DNA from: Deltaproteobacteria bacterium
GTDB taxonomy: Bacteria; SZUA-79; Acidulodesulfobacterales; Acidulodesulfobacteraceae
Assembly: GCA_023489335.1 (NCBI GenBank)
Contig: JAMDCP010000011.1
Coordinates: 62,001 to 126,000 of the forward strand
DNA length: 64,000 nucleotides
Direction: 5' to 3'
Shown: piece after piece, positions 12,127-63,701 of the stretch
Layout of the letters: the number at the start of each line of letters is the position of its first letter
Position numbering within the stretch: the stretch's first letter is position 1
Notes under the pieces: generated by a model
What the model was told of the DNA's origin: nothing
The model's database searches: none
Seen by the model: only the letters and a program-made list of their open reading frames with translations
Position numbers and translations under genes: made by a program

Positions 12127-13065
12127 ATGAAGGATAATATAAAAGATAATATAAAAAAAGAAAAAAGCGGGGATGCAAGATTGCTTCGCTCCGCTCGCAA
12201 TGACGGGAAGGGCGGGAGCGCCAAAAATGAGGAAGGCAGGATGGCCTTTCTGGAGCATTTTTCGGAATTAAGAAAAAGGATAATTTATATTTTTATTGCC
12301 CTTGTTATCGGAATGGGGTTTTCGTGGCACCTGTCTTATACCGCCATTGACTTTATAGAACTTCCTCTAAACAAGCCGACCTATATTACATATTTATCGG
12401 GAGAAGCAAAGACATTAATCAAAAAGGATGCCCCGTCCGTTTATTATACCTTTGGTTTAAATAAAACGCCGAAGAAATTCGTAAAACATATTTTACACTA
12501 TTCAAGGCCATTGGAGCCGTTTTTTATGCAGGTCAAGGTCTCCCTTATCCTTGGATTTATGCTCGCTCTTCCATTCATACTTTTTGAAATATGGCAATTT
12601 ATAAAGCCCGGTTTGTTAAAGAAAGAAAGAATGTATCTTGTTCCTTTTTTATTTTTCGGGACGCTCTTTTTCATTGCGGGGATGATATTTATGATTTTGT
12701 ACATCTGGCCTGCCGTTATTAACTTTTCGTTAAGCTATCAAAGCCCTAATTTATCCCCCCTTATCAATTTAACGCATTATATTAATTTTGCATTAAGGTT
12801 GAGTCTTATATTCGGCCTGATATTCGAGCTTCCGTTAATATCGGCTCTTTTTTCCTTAGCCGGCATACTTAAACCACATTTTTTAAAAAAATACAGGAAA
12901 TGGGCTCTCCTATTAAGCCTTATTATTGCCGCTTTTCATGCCGACATAGTTACGATGTTTTTTATAGCGATTCCGTTATATTCGATGTACGAGATAAGCA
13001 TTTTAATATCTTCTATTATATGGCGGATTAAGAAAAAGCCCGCCCCGGCTCCTAATCCTGCATAG
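12127..13065 (+). CDS. tatC: Sec-independent translocase TatC; start may be 12241
   Basis: MAFLEHFSELRKRIIYIF... multi-TM TatC fold; the first ~38 codons contain a dispersed repeat. Confidence 0.93.
   Translation: MKDNIKDNIKKEKSGDARLLRSARNDGKGGSAKNEEGRMAFLEHFSELRKRIIYIFIALVIGMGFSWHLSYTAIDFIELPLNKPTYITYLSGEAKTLIKKDAPSVYYTFGLNKTPKKFVKHILHYSRPLEPFFMQVKVSLILGFMLALPFILFEIWQFIKPGLLKKERMYLVPFLFFGTLFFIAGMIFMILYIWPAVINFSLSYQSPNLSPLINLTHYINFALRLSLIFGLIFELPLISALFSLAGILKPHFLKKYRKWALLLSLIIAAFHADIVTMFFIAIPLYSMYEISILISSIIWRIKKKPAPAPNPA
12176..12208. repeat. Dispersed palindromic repeat (GATTGCTTCGCTCCGCTCGCAATGACGGG)
   Basis: Same family as the 60348-60465 element (CCGTCATTGCGAG...GCGAAGC.ATCT). Confidence 0.75.
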
Positions 13066-56716: not shown

Positions 56717-57277
56717 ATGGATAAAACTATGGATAAGTTAAATGTCGTCAATTCAATCAATGATTTAAAGGGTTTTGTCAGGGAGATTCCCGATTTCCCC
56801 CAAAAAGGGATTAATTTTAAAGATATAACGCCCCTTCTTGCAAACCCCAAGGCTTTTGCATTTTCCATCGATAGCCTTGCAAACAAATATCTAAACGAAA
56901 GGATTGATTATGTCGTTTGCATAGAGGCAAGGGGTTTTGTGGTGGGTTCTGCGCTTGCTTACAGGCTGGGGTCGGGTGTAATAATTGTTAGAAAGCCGGG
57001 CAAACTTCCGTACGAGTGCAATTCTTTATGCTACGACTTAGAATACGGAAGCGCAACGCTTGAAATTCATAAAGACGCATTAAAAAAGGGGGACAGGGTA
57101 ATTATCGCCGATGATGTTTTGGCAACCGGCGGTACGGCTCTTGCCGCAATCAACCTTGTAAAAGAGTTTGGCGCAGAGGTGGCGGATGCGGCGTTTTTAG
57201 CCGAGCTTTCGTTTTTAAACGGAAGAGGCAAATTAAAGCCATATACTATTAATTCCTTGATGAAATTTGATTATTAA
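56717..57277 (+). CDS. apt: Adenine phosphoribosyltransferase
   Basis: IPDFPQKGINFKDITPLL, EARGFVVGSALAYRLG, VIIADDVLATGGTALAA. Confidence 0.97.
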   Translation: MDKTMDKLNVVNSINDLKGFVREIPDFPQKGINFKDITPLLANPKAFAFSIDSLANKYLNERIDYVVCIEARGFVVGSALAYRLGSGVIIVRKPGKLPYECNSLCYDLEYGSATLEIHKDALKKGDRVIIADDVLATGGTALAAINLVKEFGAEVADAAFLAELSFLNGRGKLKPYTINSLMKFDY

Positions 57278-57316: not shown

Positions 57317-57706
57317 ATGAAAAAGGGTTTTACGATTATTTTTATCGTTCTTGTCATTGTTTTAGGTTATATTGTCGTTCATGCAATTACTGCTCCGGTT
57401 AAGTTATCGGCCGCGCAGCTTGGAGCCGAACTCATTCATTCCCATAAAAACGGCATCGATTGCTTTGCCTGCCACGCAATAAACGGCAAGGGCGGTAATG
57501 TCGGCCCAGATCTTTCGAAAGAAGGAGCTCTTAAACATTCTATTAAATGGCTCGAGGTTCAAATTGCAACACCGGCAAAGCATTTTAAACCCGGTTCCAT
57601 GGTTAAGATAAACGGCAAAACATATATGGCTATTATGCCCGACCACAAGATGCTTTCCAAAAAAGAGCTTTTTGAGCTTGCGTCTTATCTGGATTCGTTG
57701 AAATAA
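57317..57706 (+). CDS. Membrane-anchored class I c-type cytochrome
   Basis: N-terminal TM; CFACHAINGKGGNVGPDLSKEG; IMPDHKMLSKKELFELASYL. Confidence 0.92.
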   Translation: MKKGFTIIFIVLVIVLGYIVVHAITAPVKLSAAQLGAELIHSHKNGIDCFACHAINGKGGNVGPDLSKEGALKHSIKWLEVQIATPAKHFKPGSMVKINGKTYMAIMPDHKMLSKKELFELASYLDSLK

Positions 57707-58137: not shown

Positions 58138-58191
58138 GGATATCTTTTTATTTTAATTAATTTAATTTATATTTTAGATTTGGAGGCAAAA

Positions 58192-59388
58192 ATGAAGATA
58201 ATAAATTTTGACCATTTTGCGGCAACAAAAATGAGGCCTGAGGTAAAGGATGCAATGGAGCCTTTCTTTATGCAGGAATACGGCAATCCCCAGAGCATTC
58301 ACACATTGGGGGACGAGCCGAGAGAGGCTCTCAATAAGGCAAGGCTTCAGGCGGCGGAGCTTTTAGGCGCAGCAAGCAACGAGGTGATATTTACGGGGAG
58401 CGGTTCGGAATCCAACAATCTTGCAATTAAAGGAACGGCTTTTGCCAGAATGGATAAAGGGAAACATATAATCGTTTCTAAAATCGAGCATTTTAGCGTG
58501 TTAAATGCCGTTAAGGCTCTGGTTAAACTTGGTTTCGAGGTCAGCGAAATCCCTGTTGACAAATACGGTTCGGTTGACCCTCAGGATGTCAAAAACGCCT
58601 TAAGAAAGGATACGATTCTTGTCAGCATAACGCATGCGTCAAATGAAATAGGCACTATTCAGGATATTAAAGAAATTTCAAAGATAGTCCATGAAAACTC
58701 CGGGGCATATATGCACACCGATGCAAATACTTCATGCGGCTTTATTGAAACCGATGTCAAGGAACTCGGCGTCGATATGCTTTCCGCCGCACCGCACAGG
58801 TTTTACGGTCCAAAGGGAACGGGGCTTTTCTATCTTAAAAAGGGAACCAGAATAATGCCTTTAATAGACGGCGGCATTCAAGAGTTCGGAAGAAGGGCGG
58901 GTACTGAGAATGTTCCTGCCATTGCAGGCGCCGGTGTTGCGTGCGAACTGGCGAAAAAGGAGTTAAAGGCTCGGACCGCGCATCTTCTGCCTATTCAAAA
59001 ATATATAACAAGCGGGGTATTAGGTTCTCTCTACGAGGTGTATCTTAACGGGCATCCCGAAAAAAGGCTACCTAATAATTTAAACTTTGTGGTGAAATAC
59101 ATCGAGGGCGAATCTATGTTGATGTGGCTTAATAACAAGGGAATTATGGTCGCAAGCGGTTCCGCCTGCACATCCAAAATTTTAAAGTCGTCCCATGTGT
59201 TAAACGCTATAGGGGTTGACCCTGCGCTTGCGCAGGGCTCGCTGCTTATTTCTCTGGGCGAGGACAATTCGCTGCAAGATGCCGCTTATTTTGTGAAGGA
59301 GCTTCCGCCGGTGGTGAATAAATTAAGGCAGATGTCCCCTCTTTACGAAGAAGTTATGAAAAACAGGATGCAATCCGTGCAAGTGTGA
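58192..59388 (+). CDS. nifS: Cysteine desulfurase (NifS/IscS family)
   Basis: NFDHFAATKMRPEV, FTGSGSESNNLAIKG, ASGSACTSKILKSSHVL; SD GGAGG before ATG 58192; ORF-track upstream extension is repeat-encoded. Confidence 0.95.
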   Translation: MKIINFDHFAATKMRPEVKDAMEPFFMQEYGNPQSIHTLGDEPREALNKARLQAAELLGAASNEVIFTGSGSESNNLAIKGTAFARMDKGKHIIVSKIEHFSVLNAVKALVKLGFEVSEIPVDKYGSVDPQDVKNALRKDTILVSITHASNEIGTIQDIKEISKIVHENSGAYMHTDANTSCGFIETDVKELGVDMLSAAPHRFYGPKGTGLFYLKKGTRIMPLIDGGIQEFGRRAGTENVPAIAGAGVACELAKKELKARTAHLLPIQKYITSGVLGSLYEVYLNGHPEKRLPNNLNFVVKYIEGESMLMWLNNKGIMVASGSACTSKILKSSHVLNAIGVDPALAQGSLLISLGEDNSLQDAAYFVKELPPVVNKLRQMSPLYEEVMKNRMQSVQV

Positions 59389-59479: not shown

Positions 59480-59926
59480 ATGCCGGTATATTCGGAAAAA
59501 GTTATGGATCACTTTCAAAATCCAAGAAATGTGGGAGAAATCGAAAATGCGGACGGGGTAGGGGAGCTTGGCAATCCGACCTGCGGCGATATAATGAAAA
59601 TATATATCAAAGTCAAAGACGATAAAATCGACGATATAAAATTTAAAACATTCGGCTGCGGAGCGGCTATCGCAACAAGCTCGATGGTAACCGAACTTGT
59701 AAAGGGAAAGACGCTCGAAGAGGCGGAAAGGGTATCTAACGAGGTTGTTGCCGAGGCTTTGGACGGACTTCCTCCCGTTAAGATGCACTGCTCCAATCTT
59801 GCGGCGGATGCGCTTCATCTTGCCGTGGAGGATTACAAGGCAAGAAAGGCGGGCAAAGGTCCGCTCGGCAGGGTCGAAACACCGGAACATGACGAAAGCG
59901 AACACGATTTGCTCGAGCATGCGTAA
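59480..59926 (+). CDS. nifU: Fe-S cluster scaffold NifU/IscU N-terminal type
   Basis: YSEKVMDHFQNPRNVGEIENADGVGELGNPTCGDIMKIYIKV, FGCGAAIATSSM, KMHCSNLAADAL. Confidence 0.96.
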   Translation: MPVYSEKVMDHFQNPRNVGEIENADGVGELGNPTCGDIMKIYIKVKDDKIDDIKFKTFGCGAAIATSSMVTELVKGKTLEEAERVSNEVVAEALDGLPPVKMHCSNLAADALHLAVEDYKARKAGKGPLGRVETPEHDESEHDLLEHA

Positions 59927-60347: not shown

Positions 60348-60465
60348 CCGTCATTGCGAGATATCTTTACCGGCGGCCAATAAAAGCCAACGGCTTTTAT
60401 GCCGGTAAAGATGGGTAGCGACGGACGAAGTCCAGCGAAGCTCACCAATCTCGCGGTTATTATGC
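60348..60465. repeat. CGTCATTGCGAG-type dispersed repeat containing nested palindrome 60363-60412
   Basis: CCGTCATTGCGAGat[ATCTTTACCGGC...GCCGGTAAAGAT]gggTAGCGACGGACGAAGTCCAGCGAAGCTCACCAATCTCG. Confidence 0.85.
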
Positions 60466-60525: not shown

Positions 60526-60554
60526 TTGACAAAGGGTAATTTTAAGTATATATA
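60526..60554 (+). promoter_or_regulatory. Sigma70-type promoter upstream of porin-cytochrome
   Basis: TTGACA-17 nt-TATATA. Confidence 0.65.
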
Positions 60555-60824
60555 TTATATATATTAAATCATATATTGCCCATAACGGTGCGTTTTAAGC
60601 CTTTCGATGCAGGGCGTATGTGTGGAACGGAAACGGTTAAAAAGCGAATGCAATCTGGAAAATAAATTAAAATCTTTATTAATTTAAGGAGGTGGAGAGG
60701 GAGAAATAGATTAAAGCATGTCGTCCCCGCAGAGCATATGAACGGGGATTTGCAGTTTAATGAATGTTTGTTAGTTCTGTTTTTTTATTAATTTTTAATT
60801 TTAACTTTAAGAGAGAGGAAAGTT

Positions 60825-62216
60825 ATGAAAAAGAAATTGGTAATAACTATGGTTGCTTTGTTTGTTTTAGCGCTTTCTTTCGCTATGGCGCCGAAAAAAG
60901 CAAACGCAATTCCGGCTTTTGCTCAAAAGTATCATTTTTCATGCGCAGTTTGCCACACGGTTTTCCCGAACCTTAACCCGTTCGGAAGAGCGTTCTGGAG
61001 AAACGGCTTCAGGCTTCCCGGAACAAACGGAACTCCGTCCGACGCAACACAGATTACCGAAGGTTTGAGTCTTCCGAACCCATGGCCGGTTCCGATAATG
61101 GTCGAAGGTATAATTACCTATCAGCATTATACGAATGAAAATGTAAGTAATGCAATTCCCCAGCAGACAGATGCCTTTGGCATTGATGGCGCCATAGTTA
61201 CAGGCGGCGCATTTAAGCTTTACACCCCGCTTGCGGATTCGCTTTCTTTTTATACACACTGGACTGTCGGCGGTAATGTAAAGTTAAAGCAGGTTTTCGC
61301 ATCTTTAAACGGGCTCGGAACTGGTTTTGGTCTTCCATCACACCTGTTTAATTTAAAATTAGGCCAGGTAACAACCGCATCCCCGTACTTTTATAGACAG
61401 GCGCCTTTCTATCTTACCGCAGGTCCTGTGCAGAATGGCCAGGGGTTAGCAGTCGGTTATGACACTGAAGCCGGTAACTTAATTCATAAAAGAAACGCGG
61501 GTTTTGCCCTTTACGGAACGCCGGGCTATCATTTGTGGTATAAAGTAAGCGTTACTAATGATGCAGGCGGAAGTACCGTGAATGCCAATTCAAACACCAC
61601 GGGCGTAAGCAATGCAATGGAGTATTCTTACCAGTTAAAAGAATATGCTCCAATCCCGATGGGTCAGCTTGAGTTCGGGTATTACGGAGCCTCAATATCC
61701 CAGCCGCTTTATAACGCAGCCATTGGCGCTTGGAATACCAGTGTTCAGGTTAATGGCGTGGATGTTGACCTTGCAAACGATATTTATGAACTTGGTTTAA
61801 CCTATATGCAGCAAAGAGATAACCATCCTTACGGTCCTAACGGTATTACTTTTAACGGCAATACCCAGAATTCAAACGGTTATGATACATTTGAAGTTTA
61901 CGGCAGATATTTATTCCCGCAAATTGGTAATGGCTTAATGCTCTCTGCGGATTACGCGGCATACAGCTGGACGCATAAAGATGCGCAGGAAGCCTATAAT
62001 GGTAATAATCCTGGAGCCAGTTGTTCCAACGCCAGTCTTTATCAGTCAGGAACATATACATCATCCAACGGCTGCACCAACGAAGGCATAAAGGATGCGT
62101 TTGCCATTAATGCCGAATACAACCTGGCATACAACGCTCATTTGTACCTTGGATATTTGTTCACCAATAAATCTGAGGACAATACAGTTGGCGCAGGTCT
62201 TGACTTTGCATTCTAA
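60825..62216 (+). CDS. Outer-membrane single-heme cytochrome-porin fusion (Cyc2-like architecture)
   Basis: Signal peptide ...ANA; one heme motif CAVCH (60942-60956) in FSCAVCHTVFPNLNPFGRAFWRNGFRLP; long beta-rich region ending VGAGLDFAF with C-terminal Phe. Confidence 0.82.
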   Translation: MKKKLVITMVALFVLALSFAMAPKKANAIPAFAQKYHFSCAVCHTVFPNLNPFGRAFWRNGFRLPGTNGTPSDATQITEGLSLPNPWPVPIMVEGIITYQHYTNENVSNAIPQQTDAFGIDGAIVTGGAFKLYTPLADSLSFYTHWTVGGNVKLKQVFASLNGLGTGFGLPSHLFNLKLGQVTTASPYFYRQAPFYLTAGPVQNGQGLAVGYDTEAGNLIHKRNAGFALYGTPGYHLWYKVSVTNDAGGSTVNANSNTTGVSNAMEYSYQLKEYAPIPMGQLEFGYYGASISQPLYNAAIGAWNTSVQVNGVDVDLANDIYELGLTYMQQRDNHPYGPNGITFNGNTQNSNGYDTFEVYGRYLFPQIGNGLMLSADYAAYSWTHKDAQEAYNGNNPGASCSNASLYQSGTYTSSNGCTNEGIKDAFAINAEYNLAYNAHLYLGYLFTNKSEDNTVGAGLDFAF

Positions 62217-62260
62217 TCCGGCTAACGCAGGGTTGTGATTGCAATTGCAATAAAAATTAA

Positions 62261-62297
62261 AGCGGAAGCGGCTTTCTAAGCCCTTCCGCTTTTTTTC
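62261..62297 (+). terminator. Rho-independent terminator
   Basis: AGCGGAAG-cggctttctaagcc-CTTCCGCT followed by TTTTTT. Confidence 0.92.
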
Positions 62298-62397
62298 TCC
62301 TTCTTTCCTATCTCATAAAATCCCGTTATGAAAGCATTATTTTTTGTGGTATAATAAAAAAATAAATAAAATTGTTCCATAACTTCAATAATCAACC

Positions 62398-62651: not shown

Positions 62652-62873
62652 ATGAAAATAAGATATTTTTCCGATACGGACACGGCATTTATAGAATTTT
62701 CCGACAAACCTGTTATGGAAACTAAAGAGATATCAGAAAATCTTTACATCGATACGGATGAAAGCGGAAACATAGTCAGCATGACCATAGAGCATGCAAA
62801 AGAAAAAGCCAATATGTCAGAGATAACTTATTTGCAGATGGATTCTAATAGCCAAAAGACAGCCCACGCTTAA
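62652..62873 (+). CDS. DUF2283 family protein
   Basis: MKIRYFSDTDTAFIEFSDKPVMETKEISENLYIDTDESGNIVSMTIEHAKE. Confidence 0.85.
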   Translation: MKIRYFSDTDTAFIEFSDKPVMETKEISENLYIDTDESGNIVSMTIEHAKEKANMSEITYLQMDSNSQKTAHA

Positions 62874-63042: not shown

Positions 63043-63330
63043 ATGGGAGCTAAATTATTATTCCGTCAAAAGAATATCTATCCTAACGGGGATATTGTCG
63101 AGATGAAGATATGGCGGGTGCCGGACTCGGACGATAAGCCGCATGGATTAAAATATTCGCTCGTCTATATTCAAAACGGCAAAATAATTTTGGGATTCGA
63201 TAACGCCGAGGGCAAAGGCGACCATAAGCATTATAAAGGTAGAGAATACAACTACGATTTTAAAAGTGTAGATAAATTAATTAAAGATTTTTATGGTATT
63301 ATCGAAAAAATAAGGAGCGGCAAACAATGA
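63043..63330 (+). CDS. TumE/DUF6516-like toxin
   Basis: 95 aa; DIVEMKIWRVPDSDDKPHGLKYSLVYI...GFDNAEGKGDHKHYKGREYNYDFKS. Confidence 0.75.
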   Translation: MGAKLLFRQKNIYPNGDIVEMKIWRVPDSDDKPHGLKYSLVYIQNGKIILGFDNAEGKGDHKHYKGREYNYDFKSVDKLIKDFYGIIEKIRSGKQ

Positions 63331-63701
63331 AAGTAAAAAAAATAAATATAGGCATAAAAAGTTTAAACGAAAGCCTCGAAAATTTTGCCGATACATGGAA
63401 ACAACTTGAATCCGGCAAAAAAGTTAAGAAAGAAGAGGCAATATATTTTGAATCTATAGATGCCGTAAGGTCGGTTCTTACGAACAACAGGCTCTTAATT
63501 CTTAAAACAATCAAAGAAAAGCATCCTAAATCCATATATGAACTATCAGGGATGCTGGGAAGAAATTTAAAAAACGTTAATCAGGATTTAGATATGCTTG
63601 TTAGAATAGGGCTTGTGGAACTTAAAAAAGAAAAAACCGATAAAGACCGTGTTATTCCCTTTGTGAATTATAATGAAATTATGCTTGCGATACCCGTATA
63701 A
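63327..63701 (+). CDS. HTH antitoxin/transcriptional regulator (TumA/HVO_A0114-like)
   Basis: VLTNNRLLILKTIKEKHPKSIYELSGMLGRNLKNVNQDLDMLVRIGLVEL winged HTH; overlaps toxin by 4 nt. Confidence 0.8.
   Translation: MKVKKINIGIKSLNESLENFADTWKQLESGKKVKKEEAIYFESIDAVRSVLTNNRLLILKTIKEKHPKSIYELSGMLGRNLKNVNQDLDMLVRIGLVELKKEKTDKDRVIPFVNYNEIMLAIPV

Follow-up and report, generated by a model that had tools for sequence, protein, structure and literature searches.

A gene for a Cyc2-like single-heme porin-cytochrome, 463 aa long, lies at positions 60825–62216 of the window, that is, of the 64,000-nucleotide stretch of DNA that we analyzed (ATG start; all features given below are on the forward strand unless noted). 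From its sequence and modeled structure we consider the protein a probable outer-membrane, Cyc2-like iron oxidase, one that probably takes electrons from dissolved iron in an uncultured, acid-loving bacterium. Cyc2 serves as the principal marker gene for iron oxidation by microbes, and Fe2+ is abundant at low pH. As predicted directly, the protein is exported and carries a single heme c site at its mature N-terminus, fused to a 16-stranded porin barrel.

The ORF is as the preliminary description had given it: 463 aa with a signal peptide, exactly one CxxCH (CAVCH), and a C-terminal Phe. The signal peptide (residues 1–28; 60825–60908), Lys-rich and then with a hydrophobic core and an AxA, was recognized by eye, as was its cleavage between ANA and IPAF, and it is kept among the aligned relatives. 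It is followed by the Cyc2 signature region AIPAFAQKY (60906–60932), the heme site (residues 40–44; 60942–60956), PNL (residues 48–50; 60966–60974), and the predicted barrel (residues 91–463; 61095–62213). I29, C40, C43, H44, L50, and G54 are among the residues invariant in 26 aligned relatives; because of this invariance and because the gene is present in 28/30 genomes examined of the phylum (GTDB SZUA-79), the ORF is not a chance one. All of the good genomes of the phylum (19/19; completeness ≥90 percent, contamination ≤5 percent) contain the gene. Full-length relatives, with 47–73 percent identity, are found in MAGs including Candidatus Acididesulfobacter diazotrophicus AP1 (L013), and fragments of relatives in the isolate SZUA-79; these matches assign the window to the Candidatus Acidulodesulfobacterales lineage. 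Pfam, NCBIfam, and PDB sequence searches with the protein returned nothing usable; Pfam and NCBIfam are also blind to those Cyc2-like relatives that were tried.

In the published description (PMC8406198), Cyc2 has a signal peptide and one CXXCH, with the motif AXPXFAR[Q/K][T/Y] upstream of this heme site and a PXL motif four residues downstream of it; a porin is fused to the heme domain, and the protein is no shorter than 365 residues. The window protein, with the N-terminal heme region AIPAFAQKYHFSCAVCHTVFPNL, resembles Acidithiobacillus ferrooxidans Cyc2 and Mariprofundus Cyc2-PV1 in the signal peptide (by eye), the single N-terminal CXXCH, the P-x-F-A-x-K-Y region before the heme, the PXL after it (as PNL, with its Pro four residues past the heme His), and the C-terminal 16-stranded porin (predicted here); its 463 aa exceed the minimal length, and profile HMMs reveal homology over the whole length to Cyc2-type relatives. 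Column comparison with the published consensus (PMC8406198) leaves one deviation from the strict AXPXFAR[Q/K][T/Y] motif, that is, Gln in place of Arg in AIPAFAQKY. At this position (residue 34) the lineage has Gln (26/27) or Glu (1/27, a paralogue), whereas the relatives outside the phylum have Arg (39/46) or, in the remainder, Lys, His, or Ala; the Cys, Cys, and His of the heme site are invariant both in the 27 lineage members and in the 46 outside relatives. Because every member has Gln or Glu at the signature Arg, the window protein is, on its sequence, a Cyc2-like variant and not a canonical Cyc2. The lineage also differs from Cyc2 in an extra invariant residue, His37, just ahead of the heme site, in forming its own deep clade, and in having an upstream cytochrome c gene instead of a rus-type operon (vide infra). 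All 27 lineage members, the paralogue included, share His37, His101, and His173, which are not conserved outside; from this pattern they are candidates for the distal heme ligand. In a subgroup of the relatives (L025 3325–4722 and L026 6001–7398), an insertion follows the heme site (CAVCHINGYGGGASLNPFG), the Pro of PXL is lost, and a gene for a related cytochrome c is located downstream.

The relatives outside the phylum are single-heme proteins of ~370–500 aa from many families across the domain (profile search of 386 genomes), and most carry the canonical FAR[Q/K][T/Y]. An HMM built from 46 extra-phylum sequences matches residues 1–463 of the window protein with an E-value of 1e-47; in a profile–profile comparison, the heme region matches plasmid-borne proteobacterial Cyc2-type proteins with a probability of 98.2. 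The outside set was mostly found via the lineage's own profile and chosen by motif; since its profile matches are almost only in the heme region, the match of the barrel is largely independent of that selection. With the heme region removed, the barrel alone matches the 46-sequence HMM with an E-value of 1.7e-14 (best shuffled control, 0.08; best reversed barrel, 0.28), and a barrel-only HMM matches the window protein with 1.4e-11 and the best of 970 unrelated ORFs with 2.2; the controls scored are thus shuffled, reversed, and unrelated sequences. At the level of sequence profiles, an ancestry common to the window protein and the Cyc2-type fusions is thereby shown over the whole length.

Plasmid-borne relatives were located with tblastn in Caballeronia, Paraburkholderia, Ralstonia, Ideonella, and Methylocystis, and then in Acidiphilium and Polymorphobacter; those on annotated proteobacterial plasmids have a c-type cytochrome gene nearby, one of them together with a HiPIP gene. 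Two Cyc2-like genes, on plasmid CP084173.1 (L101 2890–4257; assigned to Acidithiobacillus ferrooxidans YQ-N3) and on NC_009469.1 (Acidiphilium cryptum), have equal match scores, and the CP084173.1 copy adjoins a transposase; their likeness may reflect either transfer or contamination.

A quick maximum-likelihood tree (59 proteins; midpoint root, which does not fix the nearest sister) has the lineage as one clade (support 100, starred), the FARQT group as a second (99, starred), and the remainder as the FARKY group (83). The lineage clade has a long branch and is located outside the FARQT-motif group; since the signature Arg is missing as well, function by kinship is a weaker argument here than for Cyc2 cluster 1. 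A phylogeny that places the protein with non-iron porins lacking heme ligation had been named as evidence against the Cyc2-like reading, and we looked for it; the relatives are instead porin fusions that bear heme at a single CxxCH and have the Cyc2 signature, a result in support of that reading.

Leptospirillum Cyt572 (Cyc2 cluster 3) has a special heme that absorbs at 572 nm, and the window protein might be its plain orthologue; this would be a matter of family placement, compatible with iron oxidation, and we regard it as distinctly unlikely. PMC6776010 (2019) reports cyt572-like genes in all four of the first MAGs of the order Candidatus Acidulodesulfobacterales, AP1 among them; one such gene, in AP4, ranks within the top 20 transcripts of that MAG, and the abundance of the order correlates with ferrous iron. 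Because an orthologue of the window gene is present in AP1 (L013), the cyt572-like gene described there very likely belongs to the window gene's family, so that the family and the function proposed for it were known in outline before. Both Cyt572 and the window protein are outer-membrane cytochromes of acidophiles (as predicted here for the latter), and the lineage's gene was annotated as cyt572-like. Plain orthology is disfavored because Cyt572 branches long and atypically and has an unusual heme (PMC8406198), and because the lineage forms a fully supported clade of its own in the 59-protein tree of lineage, FARQT, and FARKY sequences. The literature that we searched yielded no paper that treats SZUA-79 and cyc2 together.

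A predicted structure other than a barrel would have counted against the same reading. The two AlphaFold2 models, one of the full and one of the mature protein (26 sequences), have 16 long strands from residue 91 onward, with a mean pLDDT of 66–67, mostly 70–86 in the barrel strands and below 50 in the heme region; given the latter value, the placement of the heme domain proposed below is not taken from the model. Foldseek matches the barrel in the PDB to OmpF, OmpC, OmpK36, and PorB, all 16-stranded, with E-values down to 2e-11 and TM-scores (normalized by query length) of 0.42–0.53. The predicted topology is like that of OmpF, OmpC, and PorB; these differ in having no heme domain, and the identity is only about 10–16 percent. 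The fold search of BFVD identified only phage-encoded porins and other barrels.

The genome neighborhood supplies a putative partner. Upstream of the Cyc2-like gene, the window encodes an apt-like phosphoribosyltransferase (56717–57277; PF00156), which marks the syntenic block, and a monoheme c-type cytochrome of 129 aa (57317–57706; PF00034, E-value 3e-8). The order phosphoribosyltransferase, monoheme cytochrome c, Cyc2-like gene is found in 20/20 orthologous loci that could be checked, that is, those on contigs that reach far enough upstream; because some genomes are represented by two loci, the number of independent cases is below 20. The cytochrome c gene is followed by the Cyc2-like gene either directly or, as in the window, with nifS and nifU between them, here a NifS/IscS-type cysteine desulfurase (58189–59388; PF00266, start codon inferred from homologue alignment) and a NifU-N/IscU scaffold protein (59480–59926; PF01592). 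Across loci the 129-aa cytochrome is 75–92 percent identical and thus more conserved than the porin; it is the likely redox partner of the Cyc2-like protein.

The window's own genome encodes cbb3 oxidase subunits, CydAB (by eye), and 18 PF00034 matches. Cytochrome b of the bc complex is present in 26/30 genomes of the phylum and in 19/19 of the good ones; the PF00033 search of the window's own genome did not find it, because a contig end cuts the gene. With the cytochrome c neighbor, the oxidase, and the bc genes, a path from Fe(II) through the Cyc2-like heme and cytochrome c to the oxidase is therefore available, and for the sequence of its steps we infer the following. The heme domain would be positioned at the mouth of the barrel on its periplasmic side, and dissolved Fe2+ would enter the barrel from the outside and reduce the heme; the electron would then pass to the small cytochrome c encoded upstream and from there either downhill to the cbb3 oxidase or uphill via the bc complex to the quinone pool. 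A narrow test for a tandem diheme pattern found none in the genome. The Cyt579 family was rejected; its one weak match is inside a cbb3 subunit II/cytochrome c protein.

The same architecture could also serve another flow, that is, electrons sent outward (e.g., for Fe(III) or sulfur reduction) or taken from reduced sulfur species instead of Fe(II). The direction of electrons is not readable from sequence, the lineage carries dsrAB and is versatile in its sulfur metabolism (PMC6776010), and the function of Cyc2 homologues far from the tested ones has been called uncertain (PMC8406198). However, tested Cyc2 representatives of three clusters oxidize Fe(II) (PMC8406198), the neighbor in the block is a small monoheme cytochrome and not a multiheme conduit, and the abundance of the order tracks ferrous iron (PMC6776010); we therefore hold such a flow to be unlikely, though not negligible, and prefer iron oxidation.

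Paralogues occur in other contexts. One in the same genome (L086 10270–11895; G000:C8:210269–211894) is a protein of 541 aa with FAEKYHF; genes nearby encode a NorB-like nitric oxide reductase, a small cytochrome c, and a DsbD-like protein of cytochrome c biogenesis, with cydAB upstream. Another, in a related MAG (L023 777–13445), is surrounded by four secreted proteins, each of which has several CxxCH motifs, and has Rieske and cytochrome b genes in its vicinity; the block looks like a larger extracellular electron-transfer cluster. Could the window protein be a heme-bearing porin with a non-respiratory role, e.g., sensing or detoxifying NO or peroxide, or taking up heme or metal? The location of the same-genome paralogue, in one block with the small cytochrome c and the nitric oxide reductase, would fit such a role; we nonetheless judge it very improbable for the window copy, which is in conserved linkage with a class I cytochrome c and has no uptake genes in its block, and the cyt572-like gene is reported as highly transcribed (PMC6776010). 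Iron oxidation is again the reading that we retain.

An own promoter, a long leader, and a strong terminator had also been ascribed to the gene, and all three hold. The promoter, TTGACA-N17-TATATA (60526–60554), has clear counterparts in 13/24 other orthologous loci, and the form that these share with the window can also be written TTGACA-N17-ATATAA; a generic promoter scan located nothing strong upstream of the gene on the forward strand. The position of the promoter implies a leader of about 270 nt. The intrinsic terminator, a stem-loop and T run (62259–62300), was identified by folding: 62259–62292 folds at −22 kcal/mol (z −5.3), and the T run follows; a generic scan missed it because the loop limit of the scan is 8.

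The ribosome-binding site AGAGAGGAAAGTT, or a near form of it, precedes the ATG in most relatives. Comparison of the orthologous leaders identifies a second, anti-16S-tail box, AAGGAGGTG (60686–60694), and TTTTAAGGAGGTG is the most constant block of the leader apart from the promoter. GGAGGTG occurs at −91 to −160 from the start codon in 23/25 orthologous loci (the window and 22 others) and in 0/5 paralogues; the TTWAAGGAGGTG box has three sites in the genome and none in the reversed control. An upstream ORF was ruled out by eye for the listed leaders, which have no start codon at a usable spacing past GGAGGTG. A search of Rfam with the leader gave no match at either threshold, and a structured riboswitch is unsupported because the leader folds no better than shuffles.

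The box resembles the STAB-SD of Bacillus thuringiensis cry3A, which is located near position −129, binds 30S subunits, and blocks RNase J1 (PMC4113751): both are SD-like boxes about 130 nt before the start that start no ORF, and the genome analyzed here also has an RNase J gene. The host differs in being Gram-negative. By analogy with cry3A, the box may stabilize the mRNA; the conserved promoter and this possibly mRNA-protecting ribosome-binding box would together keep the protein abundant.

New in this analysis are the lineage's standing as a clade of its own, its lack of the signature Arg, its likely cytochrome c partner, and the box in the leader. We propose tentatively, at less than even confidence, that the phylum has an unrecognized fourth kind of Cyc2 that is universal in it, inherited vertically, missed by a PXFAR[Q/K][T/Y] screen, and with its mRNA protected by a STAB-SD leader of Gram-positive type. 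The clade agrees with Cyc2 in every other sequence feature tested, yet the published motif screen would drop it; therefore, estimates of the potential for iron oxidation in acid mine drainage could be too low. Together with its conserved cytochrome c partner, the protein offers a two-protein pathway that is concrete and open to testing, in bacteria that have genes for sulfate reduction as well, and the conserved leader box is a testable case of mRNA stabilization of a probably highly expressed gene in a Gram-negative bacterium.

Elsewhere in the window, the repeat-like start GTCATTGCGAG occurs twice (60350–60360 and, on the reverse strand, 12194–12204), slightly above chance; the copy at 60350 opens a hairpin-rich intergenic stretch. 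Downstream of the Cyc2-like gene are a DUF2283 gene (62652–62873) and, at 63043–63701, genes for the toxin TumE (PF20126) and an HVO_A0114-type DNA-binding protein (PF25212), likely a toxin–antitoxin pair.
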